A stretch of DNA of 64,000 nucleotides from Mesorhizobium sp. L-2-11 (GTDB taxonomy: Bacteria; Pseudomonadota; Alphaproteobacteria; Rhizobiales; Rhizobiaceae): NCBI RefSeq assembly GCF_016756595.1, contig NZ_AP023257.1, forward strand, positions 434,001 to 498,000. The letters run 5' to 3'. Shown here one piece after another: positions 14,079 to 19,339 of this stretch. Each line of letters starts with the position of its first letter. Within the stretch, counting starts at the first letter, position 1. The notes beneath the pieces are model-generated. The model was not told the origin of the DNA. It did no database searches and saw nothing but the letters and a program-made list of their open reading frames with translations. The position numbers were made by a program, and so were the translations under genes.

Positions 14079-14471
14079 TCATGCCGGCTGACCCGAGCAA
14101 CGGAACTGTTCACCCCAGCGGCATAAGCCCTCTGCCCCAGCACAGAGCGTCGATCCGCTTTCCGTCAACGAATAGACGACCTTCGCGGGAGAACCCGGAT
14201 GGACTTTTCGGTTCACAAGCCCGTCTGCCTCTAGTTCTCGCAACTGCTGCGTCAGCATCTTTTCGCTGATCGCCGGAATTGACTGCCGCAGCCGGCCGAA
14301 CCTGCGTGGTGACGCGCCGAGTTCGCAGATGATGTCTAATTTCCACTTGCCGGAGACCATCTTTATCGCGGTTGCAAAACCATTTTCGGTGGGTCTGTGC
14401 ACCTTGCCCTCCTTACCGGCAGGTAACCACTTACGCATCCGTGCGTATTGGCGTCGCGCTTCCCAGATCAT
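14079..14471 (-). CDS. HxlR-family transcriptional regulator
   Basis: 130 residues from ATG 14471, which has GAGGGAGAGCT directly upstream; longer in-frame extension to 14669 is rejected. The HxlR winged helix is clear: ENGFATAIKMVSGKWKLDII, FGRLRQSIPAISEKMLTQQL, RELEADGLVNRKVHP. Members of this family often sense oxidants or electrophiles and regulate a divergent oxidoreductase gene. Here the divergent neighbour across 330 bp is an NADP-dependent oxidoreductase at 14802, the likely target. Confidence 0.9.
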   Translation of the reverse strand: MIWEARRQYARMRKWLPAGKEGKVHRPTENGFATAIKMVSGKWKLDIICELGASPRRFGRLRQSIPAISEKMLTQQLRELEADGLVNRKVHPGSPAKVVYSLTESGSTLCAGAEGLCRWGEQFRCSGQPA

Positions 14472-14519
14472 AGCTCTCCCTCGGACAGCAAGCGAGCCGA
14501 GCGTTGCGCAAATCAAATA

Positions 14520-14645
14520 TGGGGTGTCGGAACAATCAGTGCCCTGGAGACTCCACTTATGGATCGGCGCTCGCTCGCGCGCTGCTTCAAGCAGGATATC
14601 GCACGACCGTCTGCGACAGGACAGCAAAAGAGCCAGGAGGCGATC
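14520..14645 (+). pseudogene. Remnant of an NAD(P)-binding dehydrogenase N-terminus
   Basis: Between the HxlR gene and the oxidoreductase, one frame reads VGTISALETPLM and, after a one-base shift, GSALARALLQAGYRTTVCDR. Together these match the start of a beta-hydroxyacid/imine reductase type Rossmann fold (GxGxMGSALARALL.AGY.TTVWNRT). Two glycines of the nucleotide loop are replaced, the frame is broken, and similarity ends near 14645. It is a short dead fragment, probably left from a gene once controlled by the neighbouring HxlR protein. The rest of the 14472-14801 gap shows nothing else. Confidence 0.55.
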
Positions 14646-14801
14646 CAAACCTTCATCATCATCAACCAATCATGGAATGCCTACGAAAAGCGAACTCCTG
14701 CTTCGCCGGCGCGAAACAAGAAATCACGTCGGCGAGGCTCGATTCACGACCGTTAGAAGCGGCGGCCGTTTCATCACCAACATATTCCTAGGAGAAAAAG
14801 C

Positions 14802-15773
14802 ATGACGAATGCAAAACCGGATACAATGCAGGCCGCCGCCATCGACCGGTTCGGTGGAGCCGAGTTGGTTACCCTGCGAGCCGTGCCCGTGCCCGAGGTC
14901 GGGCCGAACGATGTCCTAATCCGGGTCGAAGTGGCGGGCGTGGCCTCGTGGGACGCGCTCGAGCGTGAGGGTCGCTACGACGGGGCTTTCGGAATGCCGT
15001 CGAGATTCCCCTATGTGCTCGGCTGGGACTGCGCGGGCGCAGTCGTCGCCGTTGGCGGCGAAGTTAGCCGCTTCAAGGAAGGCGACCGGGTGTACGCTGC
15101 ATCCATGCCACTTCCCAAGGGTGGAACCTACGCCACCTACGCAGTAACGGATGCGGACAACGTGTCGCTCATCCCCGCCAAGCTCACGGTCGAGCAAGCG
15201 GGCGTCATGGGCTGGGATGCGTTGACCGCGCTCAGCGGCCTGGAAGAGGTCGGCCTGAAGCAGGGCGATACGATAATGATCTTCGGCGCCAGCGGCGGTA
15301 TCGGGCACATGGCCATCCAACTCGCAAAACGATTGGGCGCCCGCGTATTGGCGGTGGCTTCGGGCGATGACGGCGTGGCGCTATCGCAGCGGCTGGGCGC
15401 CGACGCCATCGTCAACGGGCGCAAAGAGGACGTGCTGGCGGCCGCTCGTGAATTCGCCGCCGGCGGCCTCGACGCTGCCCTTGTCACCGCAAGCGGTGAG
15501 GCGGCCGACCGCGCGCTGACGTCAGTGCGCGACGGCGGTCGGGTCGCCTGCCCGCACGGCGTGATGCCCGATCCAACTGTCCGGCCCGGCGTGGAGCTCA
15601 TTCGCTACAACGGCGCCCGCAGCCAGGCCGCGACCGACAAGCTTAACCGCCTGATCGACTCTGGCCCGTTCGACGTCCATGTCGCCCGGACATTCCCGTT
15701 CGACAGGGTTATTGACGCGCACCGAGCGCTTGCCACCCACTACGTCGGCAAGCTCGCTTTGCGGGTAAGCTGA
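14802..15773 (+). CDS. NADP-dependent quinone oxidoreductase-like (zinc-free MDR family)
   Basis: 323 residues; AGGAG lies about 9 bases before the ATG. Medium-chain dehydrogenase/reductase: an N-terminal GroES-like domain (VLIRVEVAGVASWDALEREG, PYVLGWDCAGAVVAVG) and a Rossmann domain with IFGASGGIGHMAIQLAKRLG near 167-186. The structural-zinc Cys cluster of true alcohol dehydrogenases is absent, so it belongs with the quinone reductases. Cytoplasmic; likely reduces quinones or enones using NADPH. Divergent from HxlR, its probable regulator. Its last 34 bp overlap the convergent QueA-like gene. Confidence 0.88.
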   Translation: MTNAKPDTMQAAAIDRFGGAELVTLRAVPVPEVGPNDVLIRVEVAGVASWDALEREGRYDGAFGMPSRFPYVLGWDCAGAVVAVGGEVSRFKEGDRVYAASMPLPKGGTYATYAVTDADNVSLIPAKLTVEQAGVMGWDALTALSGLEEVGLKQGDTIMIFGASGGIGHMAIQLAKRLGARVLAVASGDDGVALSQRLGADAIVNGRKEDVLAAAREFAAGGLDAALVTASGEAADRALTSVRDGGRVACPHGVMPDPTVRPGVELIRYNGARSQAATDKLNRLIDSGPFDVHVARTFPFDRVIDAHRALATHYVGKLALRVS

Positions 15774-16852
15774 GCAAATGGTGGATTCCATCGGACATCG
15801 CCGGGCGTTGCGACGGCAGATCGATCCAGCGGTTGCCGATTGAGCAGCATGGAATCGCCGAATTCATGCGTGCGGTATCGGTGCGCGGCTAAGGCCGCGG
15901 AGGCCCTGACGAGCAGAGCATCGTCGGCAAAGGCGCGCAGGAGCTCGAAATGGCTTTCGCCCGGCTGGTGGACGCCTGTGAGAATCGCATCGACCACGCG
16001 AAGCGGTGTGTCCCGCGCGACGCGGCCCGTGGCAATGCTATTTCCTGCACGCACGCTGCCATCGGGATTGGCGGCCGCCTCAAGCGCGCGCACCACGCTC
16101 GTGCCGACCGCGATGATGCGGCTGCCGCGCAGCTTCGCCCGCGCGACCTCAGCCGCGGTGTGCTCGGGGATGCGGTATGGCTCGTCGAAGGGAAGGCGCG
16201 AGTCGAGCGCGCGATCCCCGGTCGAGGAAATGCCGGTGGCATGCGTGAGTGTCGCGAAGCCGACGTCGTGCCGGCGCCAGCTTTGAAGCGTGCGCCAGTC
16301 GAGCGCAAAGCCTGCCGATGGCGCCTCGAACGCGACCGGCCGGGCGGCAATCTTCGTCCAAACATCCCAAAGTGCCAACGGCTCGGGAACATGCGCGTAT
16401 TGGATCGGCCGGCCGTGCTGCGCCAGTCCTGCAAGCACAGTTGCGCGGTTGCCTAAGAAGCGCAGCTCGAGAAGGCGAGGATGGTCGAGAAGGCGATCCA
16501 CAACGGCTTCAAGCGGGCCGAGCCGGAGGCGATTGCCCGGTGACAGTGGCGGCGGATGCAGCCGATCTTCGGTGCGCGTGCGGTGATCGCCCGCACCGAA
16601 GGCAATCGCCACGAAACGCCTTGGATCGGCAAGTGACAGCCAGCCCGCCAGGCGGATCTCGATCGCTTCACTGCTGGGGACATGCGTGCCGTGCAAGCTG
16701 GCAGGCAAGGTCGCGGCGTCATTGGCGACGACCAGGTCGCCGGGCCCGAACAGCTTCGCAAGGTCAGCGCGCGGCAGGTCGGTCATCGCGCCGTCCGCCA
16801 TGACCACCAACAGCCTGGCGGGGCGCCGATCCGGACGGTCGGCGGCGATCAT
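15740..16852 (-). CDS. QueA-like protein (S-adenosylmethionine:tRNA ribosyltransferase-isomerase family)
   Basis: 370 residues matching QueA along its length: DLVVANDAATLPASLHGT near 37-54, GRPIQYAHVPEPLALWDVW, APSAGFALDW, GSRIIAVGTSVVRALE near 244-259, DAILTGVHQPGESHFELL, and YRTHEFGDSMLL. QueA adds the ribosyl moiety of SAM to preQ1 in tRNA. Several signature residues differ here (AGFALDW for the usual AGLHF; an altered HVGAGTF loop), and there is no tgt or queF neighbour, so it is probably a diverged paralogue with another substrate. Its ATG overlaps the SDR stop by 4 bp: one operon. Confidence 0.85.
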   Translation of the reverse strand: MIAADRPDRRPARLLVVMADGAMTDLPRADLAKLFGPGDLVVANDAATLPASLHGTHVPSSEAIEIRLAGWLSLADPRRFVAIAFGAGDHRTRTEDRLHPPPLSPGNRLRLGPLEAVVDRLLDHPRLLELRFLGNRATVLAGLAQHGRPIQYAHVPEPLALWDVWTKIAARPVAFEAPSAGFALDWRTLQSWRRHDVGFATLTHATGISSTGDRALDSRLPFDEPYRIPEHTAAEVARAKLRGSRIIAVGTSVVRALEAAANPDGSVRAGNSIATGRVARDTPLRVVDAILTGVHQPGESHFELLRAFADDALLVRASAALAAHRYRTHEFGDSMLLNRQPLDRSAVATPGDVRWNPPFAQLTRKASLPT

Positions 16853-17571
16853 CCAGGTGCCCCAGCGCGAAGTGCTGCGCCGGCCGGCAACGCGTCAAGC
16901 AGCTTTTCGATGATCTCGGCAGCTGCCAGATCGGGATGCTTCAAGGTGGCCGGATCGGCATCAGGAAGCGCCAGCGCGTGCAACGGGGTGTCCATATCGC
17001 CGGGGTCGAGCGCGAGGAACCTTATGCCATCGTCTTTCGCCTCCTCGTCCCAGATCGCCGTCAGATGGGCAAGAGCGGCCTTGCTCGCACCATACGCGCC
17101 CCAGCCGGGATAGGCGTTCACCGCCGCGTCGCTGGAGATGTTGATCACCAGCGCGCCACGGCCCTCGCGCGCCGACGTGGCAAGCGCACCGAACAGCGCT
17201 TTGGTCAGCCGAAACGCGCCGACGAGATTGACCGCAAGCGCTGTCTCCAGATCCTCGCACTCGGTGTCGGCAAGCAGCGCAGGCGGCACCGGCCCGAGGC
17301 TAGATGCATTGTTGACCAGAACGTCGAGCCCGCCGAGCCTCGCGGTGACCTGCAACGCGATCGGGTAGATGTCATGCTTTTTGCCGAGGTCGCCGACAAT
17401 GCCGTGTGCGCCCGTCTCGTCAGCGATGCGCTCGACGTTTGCGGCAGTGCGTGCGACGAAGGCGACGCTCGCACCCTGCGCGGCGAGCTGCCGCACAAGC
17501 GCCAGTCCAAGGCCGGACGTGCCACCCGTGACCGCTACGCGAAGTCCGTGAAAATCTATATTGGTCAGCAT
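16849..17571 (-). CDS. Short-chain dehydrogenase/reductase (SDR)
   Basis: 240 residues, standard SDR length. Cofactor loop TGGTSGLGLALVRQL at residues 16-30, NNAS near 87, catalytic Ser in NISSDAAV and the YGASK motif (YxxxK) near 159-163, then the LDPGDMDTPL loop. AAGGAG precedes the ATG. It is first in the two-gene operon with the QueA-like gene and is preceded by a SoxR-type promoter, so its job may be in redox or xenobiotic defence. The substrate cannot be told. Confidence 0.9.
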   Translation of the reverse strand: MLTNIDFHGLRVAVTGGTSGLGLALVRQLAAQGASVAFVARTAANVERIADETGAHGIVGDLGKKHDIYPIALQVTARLGGLDVLVNNASSLGPVPPALLADTECEDLETALAVNLVGAFRLTKALFGALATSAREGRGALVINISSDAAVNAYPGWGAYGASKAALAHLTAIWDEEAKDDGIRFLALDPGDMDTPLHALALPDADPATLKHPDLAAAEIIEKLLDALPAGAALRAGAPG

Positions 17572-17601
17572 TTCCGATGCTCCTTCGATCCTTGCAAGCC
17601 A

Positions 17602-17632
17602 AAGCTACAAGCTCAAGTTAACTTGAGGTCAA
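17602..17632 (-). promoter_or_regulatory. SoxR/MerR-type promoter with 19-bp spacer
   Basis: On the minus strand: -35 TTGACC (17632-17627), 19-bp spacer, -10 TAGCTT (17607-17602). The spacer region holds a perfect 16-bp palindrome CTCAAGTTAACTTGAG (17612-17627), which is the core of the SoxR box (CCTCAAGTTAACTTGAGG). MerR-family activators work at over-long 19-bp spacers exactly like this. The promoter lies 31 bp upstream of the SDR start. No SoxR/MerR gene is present in the window, so the activator must be encoded elsewhere. Confidence 0.8.
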
Positions 17633-17936: not shown

Positions 17937-18407
17937 TCAGGCCGGCGAGTTCCAGCCGCCGACATGGGAATAGATCATGTCGCGAAGTCCCCTGACGTTG
18001 CGGTTGAGTTCGCCCAGATGCGCCGGGGTCTGGCCGGATGCGGAGAGGAGCGCATCGCCAAGGCATCCGGCCCGAGATCTGATGGCGCGCCCCTGGTCGG
18101 TCAGGGCGACCACGACCTGTCGTTCATTGTCCGGATTCCGCGTGCGGCGCACCAGCCCGGCGGCTTCCAGCCGCTTGAGCACGGGCGTCAGCGTACTCGA
18201 GTCTAGCGCCAGCCTTTCGGCGATGCCGCCCACCGTCTGCTGATCACCGCTCCAGAGCACGTTGAGCACGAGATATTGCGGGTAGGTCAGGCCCAGCGCA
18301 TCAAGCAAGGGCTTGTAGAGCCGTTGGATGGCGATGCCCGCCGAGTAGACGGCGTAGCAAAGCTGGTCGTCCAGCGGCACGGGACTGCTTGTCTTTTCGT
18401 CGGTCAT
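17937..18407 (-). CDS. MarR/OhrR-family transcriptional regulator
   Basis: 156 residues. The N-terminal LDDQLCYAVYSA matches the OhrR segment LD.QLCFALY, whose Cys (here residue 17) is the peroxide-sensing cysteine. PQYLVLNVLW, LALDSSTLTPVLKRLEAAGL and the wing NPDNERQVVVALT complete the winged helix. OhrR represses organic hydroperoxide reductase genes until oxidised. Here the divergent gene is not ohr but an exported alpha/beta hydrolase, with palindromic sites between them. Direct peroxide sensing is inferred from the conserved Cys. Confidence 0.9.
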   Translation of the reverse strand: MTDEKTSSPVPLDDQLCYAVYSAGIAIQRLYKPLLDALGLTYPQYLVLNVLWSGDQQTVGGIAERLALDSSTLTPVLKRLEAAGLVRRTRNPDNERQVVVALTDQGRAIRSRAGCLGDALLSASGQTPAHLGELNRNVRGLRDMIYSHVGGWNSPA

Positions 18408-18452
18408 TGGGCTCCTTGCGTTTCATATAGCCGCTTCCATCGCGAAAATAAA

Positions 18453-18518
18453 TATCGCGATAAAAATTACGCTGGACAACATTCAGTTGTTATCGTAATA
18501 ACAATTATCGCGATAATT
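18453..18518. promoter_or_regulatory. Repeated ATCGCGAT palindromes between the OhrR-like gene and hydrolase
   Basis: AATTATCGCGATAATT at 18503-18518 is a perfect 16-bp palindrome; TATCGCGATA recurs at 18453-18462 (10-bp palindrome), and a related GTTATCGTAATAAC lies at 18489-18502. The 137-bp divergent region is much more AT-rich than its surroundings. The spacing suggests two operators, one for each promoter, for the MarR-type protein encoded next door. Confidence 0.7.
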
Positions 18519-18544
18519 AACGTCGCGCTGAACAAGGATGGCAC

Positions 18545-19339
18545 ATGAACACCAAGACGAGAAACATCCTGGCCATAACGGCCGCCGCGGCAGGCATTGC
18601 CGCCACCACGCTCGCGCATTCCGCCAACCGGATTCCCGACACCCAGCCCATCAGGAACGTCGTGCTGGTGCACGGCGCCTTCGCCGACGGCTCGGGATGG
18701 CGCGGGGTCTATGATCAGCTCACCGCGCGCGGCTATCGCGTCACCATCGCCCAGAATCCCCTCACCACGCTTGCGGACGACGCCGCAGCAACCAGGCGGG
18801 CCCTGGATCGCCAGGACGGTCCGAGCATCCTCGTCGGTCATTCCTGGGGCGGCACCGTCATTACCGAGGCAGGCGTCCACCCCAAGGTGGCTGGCCTCGT
18901 TTATGTCTCAGCGCTGTCGCCCGACGCCGGCGAGACGACGGCTCAACAGTATGACGGGTTCACCACGCCTCCGGAGTTCGTCATCGACACGCAGGAGGAC
19001 GGTTTCGGCTTCCTGAATCTCGAGAAGTTCAAGGCGGGCTTCGCGGCGGACGCCAGCGACGCGGATGCAGCGTTCCTGCGCGACTCGCAGGTGCCGATCA
19101 ACATGTCCGTGTTTGCGACCAAGCTCAGTAACGCCGCCTGGCGGACCAGGCCGAGCTGGGCGGTCATCGCCACGAAGGACAAGGCGTTCGACCAGAAGAT
19201 GCTGTTCAGCATGGCGGAGCGCATCGGCGCGACGATCACGGAAGTCGAGGCCAGCCATGCTGTCTTCATGACCCAGCCGAAGGTGGTGGCCGACGTCATC
19301 GATCAGGCCGCGCAAGGCGCTGCGGCCGCTGCACGCTGA
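18545..19339 (+). CDS. Exported alpha/beta hydrolase
   Basis: 264 residues. The N-terminus (MNTKTRNILAITAAAAGIAA...LAHS) is a signal peptide. The mature part is a compact alpha/beta hydrolase: oxyanion region VVLVHGAFADGSGWRG, nucleophile elbow GHSWGG near 98-103, catalytic His in EASHAVFMTQP near 237. It resembles salicylate-esterase/EstC-like hydrolases that are widespread beside MarR or AraC regulators. Likely hydrolyses an ester or amide in the periplasm. Divergent from the OhrR-like regulator and followed by an intrinsic terminator. Confidence 0.9.
   Translation: MNTKTRNILAITAAAAGIAATTLAHSANRIPDTQPIRNVVLVHGAFADGSGWRGVYDQLTARGYRVTIAQNPLTTLADDAAATRRALDRQDGPSILVGHSWGGTVITEAGVHPKVAGLVYVSALSPDAGETTAQQYDGFTTPPEFVIDTQEDGFGFLNLEKFKAGFAADASDADAAFLRDSQVPINMSVFATKLSNAAWRTRPSWAVIATKDKAFDQKMLFSMAERIGATITEVEASHAVFMTQPKVVADVIDQAAQGAAAAAR

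Follow-up and report, generated by a model that had tools for sequence, protein, structure and literature searches.

Why should a diverged relative of the queuosine enzyme QueA be placed behind a promoter of the SoxR type? The question is raised by a stretch of 64,000 nucleotides from the genome of Mesorhizobium sp. L-2-11 (bases 434001-498000 of contig 1; 7.4 Mb for the genome), referred to as the window below, in which such a promoter precedes a gene for a short-chain dehydrogenase/reductase (SDR) and a gene for a QueA-like protein, named QL here. On balance, the explanation favoured here is that of a SoxR-activated two-enzyme cassette, which would disarm a redox-active small molecule through transfer of a ribosyl group derived from S-adenosylmethionine (SAM).

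A SoxR box in front of the SDR-QL pair

The window promoter (Table 1) holds GCTCAAGTTAACTTGAGG, which displays 17 of 18 matches to the SoxR box of Escherichia coli, CCTCAAGTTAACTTGAGG (PMC4411124), and a 19-bp spacer is called similar to typical SoxR promoters in the same source. An earlier note on this DNA, drawn from its letters, had described this promoter, its 19-base-pair (bp) spacer and a palindrome taken as the core of the SoxR box; the description was borne out, with the refinement that the palindrome, a 16-mer, is the core of an 18-bp box. The -10 element is weak, and a generic sigma-70 scan, permitting spacers of 16-18 bp only, called no promoter at this site. Chance was ruled out as the origin of the box, the extended motif TTGACCTCAAGTTAACTTGAGCTTGTA (at most three mismatches) being found once in the window and in none of 100 dinucleotide shuffles of it. 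The 16-mer at the same tolerance is expected 0.03 times in the window and was reached in 3 of 100 shuffles.

A single gene of the genome exceeds the curated SoxR cut-off (224.5 versus 116.9 bits, TIGR01950), and four further MerR-type matches all fall below it. The presence of soxR, set beforehand as a point on which the proposal could fail, is thus verified. The gene is located 1.6 Mb from the cassette; the statement of the earlier note that the window itself has no SoxR or MerR gene held in tblastn searches with the genome's own SoxR, two of its MerR proteins and SoxL (the name given here to the cassette-linked SoxR paralogue of relatives), none of which gave a match at E <= 0.01. Over the whole 7.4-Mb genome, CCTCAAGTTAACTTGAG was found within three mismatches at three places, namely at the cassette (0 mismatches), beside soxR (1) and at one more site (3), and a 24-base form of the box recovered only the cassette and soxR sites. 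The start of soxR adjoins the second box, to which the cassette box is identical over 27 of 28 bases. Since only two boxes lie within two mismatches genome-wide, one beside soxR and one at the cassette, we regard the predicted SoxR-type control of the operon as highly probable.

Within the genus, the pattern TTGACNTCAAGTTAACTTGA was present within two mismatches in 76 of 81 genomes, including that of the window, and its reversed control pattern in none of the 81. Of 30 loci returned by this pattern, 25 had a close soxR, three had the cassette and two had neither. At the soxR locus L003 (1945-1975), the box has the look of a promoter directed away from soxR, and the sole long open reading frame (ORF) there is antisense to a trmL-like gene; this box may serve mainly for autorepression.

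The two-gene operon of the earlier note was confirmed by ORFs and Pfam matches. Classical SDRs follow the motif rules TGxxxGxG and YxxxK, and the SDR of the window, with TGGTSGLG and YGASK, is assigned to this class by the family model and by both motifs. Translational coupling of the two genes through their overlap is likely. Two SDR-QL fusion proteins were not counted as support for coupling, the SDR end being out of frame in one (P0082) and the other (P0108) being a possible frameshift.

Table 1. Position of the promoter, its palindrome and the two genes in the window
Feature	Position	Strand	Details
MerR/SoxR-type promoter	17632-17602	minus	-35 TTGACC (17632-17627), 19-bp spacer, -10-like TAGCTT (17607-17602); read from sequence
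Perfect palindrome CTCAAGTTAACTTGAG	17612-17627		SoxR-box core; right end G-type (SoxR-type)
SDR, 240 amino acids	17571-16849	minus	ORF; PF00106 (adh_short), 139 bits, E 1.7e-40
ATGA overlap, SDR stop / QL start	16849-16852	minus	ORF list
QL, diverged QueA-family protein, 370 amino acids	16852-15740	minus	ORF; PF02547 (Queuosine_synth), 134 bits, E 7.2e-39

Distribution and conservation of the cassette

A scan of genome contigs yielded 53 cassette loci, three of which begin inside QL, leaving 50 with upstream sequence. The nearest relatives are from Mesorhizobium, with QL identities of up to 94%. An SDR relative was directly upstream of QL at all 50 loci, and 49 of the 50 pairs shared a four-base overlap in the frame of QL (ATGA 41, GTGA 7, TTGA 1), L056 being out of frame. 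A lack of conservation in relatives had been named in the earlier note as grounds for refutation, and the box is conserved: a promoter motif with 0-6 mismatches to the 16-mer was found at the matching place of 44 of the 50 loci. A divergently adjacent SoxR-type gene, soxL, accompanies the cassette at 31 of the 50 loci, with an irregular ORF in three cases (an unread base in L017, an altered end in L035, a missing start in L062). Across taxa, the comparison of neighbours brought out no further conserved family, and the remaining wide clusters are apparently shadow ORFs of the genes already named.

QL is accessory in the genus (10 of 81 genomes). Among 142 genomes of the class scanned with PF02547, only that of the window had a full-length diverged second copy, and the cassette is therefore rare at that sampling. 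In a plasmid collection, QL occurred in 32 records, all from Rhizobium; the two records opened, Rhizobium etli CFN 42 p42f and Rhizobium sp. T136, are annotated with soxR, an SDR and an S-adenosylmethionine:tRNA ribosyltransferase-isomerase. In the Inquilinus group (L042, L044, L046, L049), a MetE-like gene (cobalamin-independent methionine synthase family) is found just upstream of the cassette; its link to SAM metabolism may be due to chance. The record of L042 is titled Mycobacterium sp. KBS0706, and as its QL groups with Inquilinus it is probably mislabelled.

Relation of QL to QueA

The genome has a separate, full QueA gene (422 bits with PF02547), the end of which overlaps the start of tgt. 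QL is below the cut-off of all three QueA equivalog models that it matched (106.7 versus 324, 78.7 versus 267.45 and 37 versus 588 bits). As the genome's queuosine enzyme, QL was rejected on account of this QueA beside tgt and of the missed equivalog cut-offs. The absence of another queA had been named in advance as a way for the proposal to fail.

The signature loops, which the earlier note had described as different from those of true QueA, were compared in an alignment of 49 QL and 30 QueA rows, and the description proved correct. The PLPPY loop was absent in 49 of 49 QL rows, LHVGxGTFxPV of QueA was changed to THAxGxSSTGD, FHLPxST to VHQPGESHF and SYGDA to EFGDS, and QL had gained FGxGDxRxRTEDRP. 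With the signature loops gone and the QueA model cut-offs missed, QL is very probably not a queuosine enzyme. A residue core nevertheless remains common to both, including N44, T166, P178, A180, T203, G207, E224, G250, T251, R255, E258, D288, H295, P297, G332 and D333. The AlphaFold model of QL (pLDDT 74.7, pTM 0.77; pLDDT under 50 at residues 1-9, 46-49, 152-183 and 343-370) matched, at E <= 0.001, four entries of the PDB, every one a QueA, and by this model QL keeps the QueA fold.

A search with QL scored 7999 candidates and reported 7515 proteins at E <= 0.001, of which the distant ones may include true QueA. The named close relatives are listed as queuosine tRNA enzyme or S-adenosylmethionine tRNA ribosyltransferase, and these names are probably wrong. 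With its three PF02547 genes (415, 272 and 177 bits), the genome of L059 (G237) hints at one more branch of the QueA family.

It is possible, if unlikely, that QL also modifies RNA, as a QueA paralogue which is induced by stress and has tRNA or another RNA as its substrate, and that the SDR then changes the group so attached. The QueA fold and the common core residues of QL agree with this, and preQ1-tRNA should usually be available, since 17 of 18 cassette genomes searched had a separate, stronger QueA match (one partial, at a contig end) and 8 of 10 had TGT. However, QL lacks the PLPPY loop and the other QueA signatures, and the pair is away from queuosine genes both in the window, where the earlier note had likewise seen none nearby, and in the neighbours compared. 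Labrys sp. KNU-23, the eighteenth genome, carries QL with neither QueA nor TGT, yet it keeps queG; for that reason it was rejected as a clean queuosine-free genome.

QueA chemistry comprises deprotonation and depurination of SAM, addition of an amine to a vinyl sulfonium, and a step in which methionine is lost and an epoxide forms (PMC10491745). As this chemistry starts on SAM itself, QL might instead cleave or rearrange SAM, lowering its level or making a diffusible SAM-derived molecule, with the SDR reducing the product. The lack of a conserved, dedicated acceptor gene next to the pair would suit this proposal, but the strongly conserved new loops of QL suggest a specific acceptor site and make it improbable.

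SoxL, operator ends and an apparent change of regulator

The linked regulators are assigned to the SoxR family: SoxL of L016 is above the curated cut-off (180.9 versus 116.9 bits), the best PDB match is E. coli SoxR (2zhg), and the four cluster cysteines, CX2CXCX5C, are kept wherever the sequence is complete. SoxR of the window's genome grouped with E. coli SoxR, and SoxL apart (support 100, with long-branch warnings). The wing reads AGSGHRRY in SoxL versus SGNQRRY in SoxR.

Box ends beside regulators were tallied over loci L003, L013-L065 and L078-L177, boxes being located from a fixed anchor; many soxR loci had been retrieved by pattern, and the box-end base lies outside that pattern. Beside soxR, 32 of 32 boxes ended in G, one further soxR having no box within six mismatches, and beside soxL, 32 of 33 ended in A. 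Among the cassettes, the end was A in all 31 boxes with a linked soxL; the 13 without one were divided into six ending in G and seven ending in A, and the window box ends in G. The G-type loci (the window, L013, L014, L015, L021, L022 and L045) are all from Mesorhizobium, and five of their genomes were searched (those of the window, L013, L014, L022 and L045), each showing, at E <= 1e-35, a single SoxR-family gene, with the SoxR wing. The seven A-type loci without a linked soxL are four Inquilinus-like and three Labrys loci, and each of the three genomes searched (Inquilinus and two Labrys) had an unlinked SoxL-type gene. From the regulator types found in the searched genomes, the box end thus fits the regulator present, linked or unlinked. 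Both systems coexist in the genome of L016 (G224), where the box of soxR is of G-type and that of soxL of A-type.

Remnants of soxL, as compared with the soxL region of L016, were detected at L045 (298 nucleotides, 68%) and at L013 and L021 (49 nucleotides, 78-80%); the window, L014, L015 and L022 gave no match inside soxL of L016 beyond short pieces of chance length. Three changes on the QL tree are required to account for the G-type state, and well-supported branches force two of them, one in the window clade (support 100) and one at L045, nested with soxL-bearing relatives (support 99). Control therefore seems, from these comparisons, to have passed from a local SoxL to the genomic SoxR in the lineage of the window, and at least twice on the QL tree; with soxL lost and the box of G-type, the pair would have been placed under the genome's SoxR.

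Control by a MerR-family regulator other than SoxR in the window's genome is very unlikely. Four other MerR-type matches are available there and closely similar boxes serve SoxL in relatives, but the cassette and soxR boxes are nearly identical, no SoxL-type gene was found and one SoxR-family gene only was present at E <= 1e-35. That the promoter is an unregulated relic of soxL loss is hardly credible. The window has no soxL and relatives have decayed copies of it, but five of the seven G-type loci, the window included, keep a perfect palindrome, and the change runs towards the genome's SoxR box, where a relic would drift.

Two further arrangements concern SoxL-type genes. At L113 (1593-2967), one such gene (69% identical) is divergent from two genes, one cupin-like and the other for a 128-amino-acid protein that has no match in Pfam, and the box is of A-type. 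At L175 and L177, both from Labrys, unlinked SoxL-type genes are divergent from a reduced nicotinamide adenine dinucleotide phosphate (NADPH)-dependent flavin mononucleotide (FMN) reductase, again with an A-type box.

Proposed function

Oxidised [2Fe-2S] SoxR is an activator that distorts an over-long promoter spacer, and activation of this kind agrees with the account given in PMC4411124. In the SoxR-activated cassette favoured here, the presence of redox-cycling compounds would lead oxidised SoxR to bind the palindrome within the 19-bp spacer and to activate SDR and QL. QL would then, by chemistry related to that of QueA, move a SAM-derived ribosyl group to an acceptor; the rebuilt loops on the kept QueA fold and residue core suggest that this acceptor is most likely other than preQ1-tRNA. 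The SDR might act with NADPH, a guess made from its class. Together, the two enzymes would disarm a redox-active small molecule by modifying it, a role of the pair that is proposed tentatively.

Genes found under such boxes in relatives encode ABM-like proteins, MFS transporters (L116, L118) and FMN reductases (L175, L177), all in keeping with a role in handling redox-active small molecules. The ABM-monooxygenase-like gene (113-115 amino acids) is found behind SoxR-type boxes at six Mesorhizobium loci (L108, L109, L110, L115, L120, L121). Of two such proteins tested, one narrowly passed Pfam's cut-off and the other narrowly missed it, and the gene was looked for in the window's own genome and not found.

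Several observations weigh against the cassette as described. The matches of the QL model to QueA have low TM-scores (0.45-0.61), with root-mean-square deviations of 10-11. The binding of SAM and tRNA by QueA is still presented as unresolved in PMC10491745, so that a retained use of SAM by QL is not checkable by residues. Labrys sp. KNU-23, by keeping queG, gives weak evidence for a role of QL outside queuosine. An A-type box is missing at one SoxL-type gene (L170), and the box-end counts are related by descent, so that a Fisher value computed on them does not give the probability of chance. The box is absent from six of the 50 cassettes (L054, L055, L057, L058, L059, L061). Among 17 cassette genomes searched, 13 had a SoxR-family gene and four had none (those of L054, L055, L058 and L059). 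With these absences, control by SoxR is no inherent property of the two enzymes. The cassettes of the same four genomes are without a box, however, and this co-absence, confounded with phylogeny as it is, speaks for the link to SoxR.

A bolder proposal, and a doubtful one, is that QL is the first QueA-fold enzyme to act outside tRNA, placing a SAM-derived (iso)ribosyl group onto a natural product that is redox-active and bears an amine. Together with the SDR, QL would then make up a mobile detoxification cassette of soil bacteria that is triggered by SoxR, and in which the resident SoxR would repeatedly have taken over control from the cassette's own SoxR paralogue through a retuned operator end.

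Neighbouring genes

On one side of the pair (14079-15773), an HxlR-type regulator is divergent from a zinc-type, quinone oxidoreductase-like alcohol dehydrogenase (PIG3-like), the arrangement being convergent with QL; the search of the window reported no SoxR-type box in this region. At 17937-19339, a MarR/OhrR-like regulator is divergent from an alpha/beta hydrolase, and the TTATCGCGATAA palindrome at 18505 between them is likely a MarR operator.

Comparison with known systems

In the open-licence literature, judged from titles, beginnings of abstracts and term counts, no link between SoxR and the QueA family and no description of the cassette were found. The kinds of component are known (SoxR regulon, QueA fold, SDR); their combination, the likely new substrate of the enzyme and the operator handover are undescribed in the literature thus searched. 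The mismatch with usual SoxR targets pointed out in the earlier note stands for the QueA-like half of the operon and fails for the SDR half, oxidoreductases being usual SoxR targets; overall, its interpretation is supported at the level of sequence. If QL acts on a substrate other than tRNA, a poorly understood SAM chemistry would be extended, and induction by SoxR offers a handle for finding that substrate. As the SoxR and SoxL systems differ by one operator end, replacement of one regulator by the other is testable in laboratory strains, for instance in Rhizobium etli CFN 42.

QL resembles QueA, the tRNA preQ1(34) S-adenosylmethionine ribosyltransferase-isomerase, in its PF02547 membership, fold and residue core, and differs from it by missed equivalog cut-offs, replaced loops, the gained FGxGDxRxRTEDRP motif and the lack of a tgt neighbour. 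Similarly, SoxL shares with SoxR the TIGR01950 assignment, the 2zhg match and the cysteine pattern, but it differs from the SoxR of this genome and of E. coli by its separate branch, its wing and an operator ending in A. The closest parallels are the non-enteric SoxR regulons of Streptomyces coelicolor (PMC4146615) and of Stenotrophomonas maltophilia with mfsA (PMC4411124). These are likewise small, with a SoxR box in a 19-bp spacer, and their targets handle redox-active small molecules (oxidoreductases, a monooxygenase, transporters). No QueA-family target is given in the passages of these two papers that deal with SoxR targets, whereas the predicted target here is an SDR together with a QueA paralogue to which it is likely translationally coupled.

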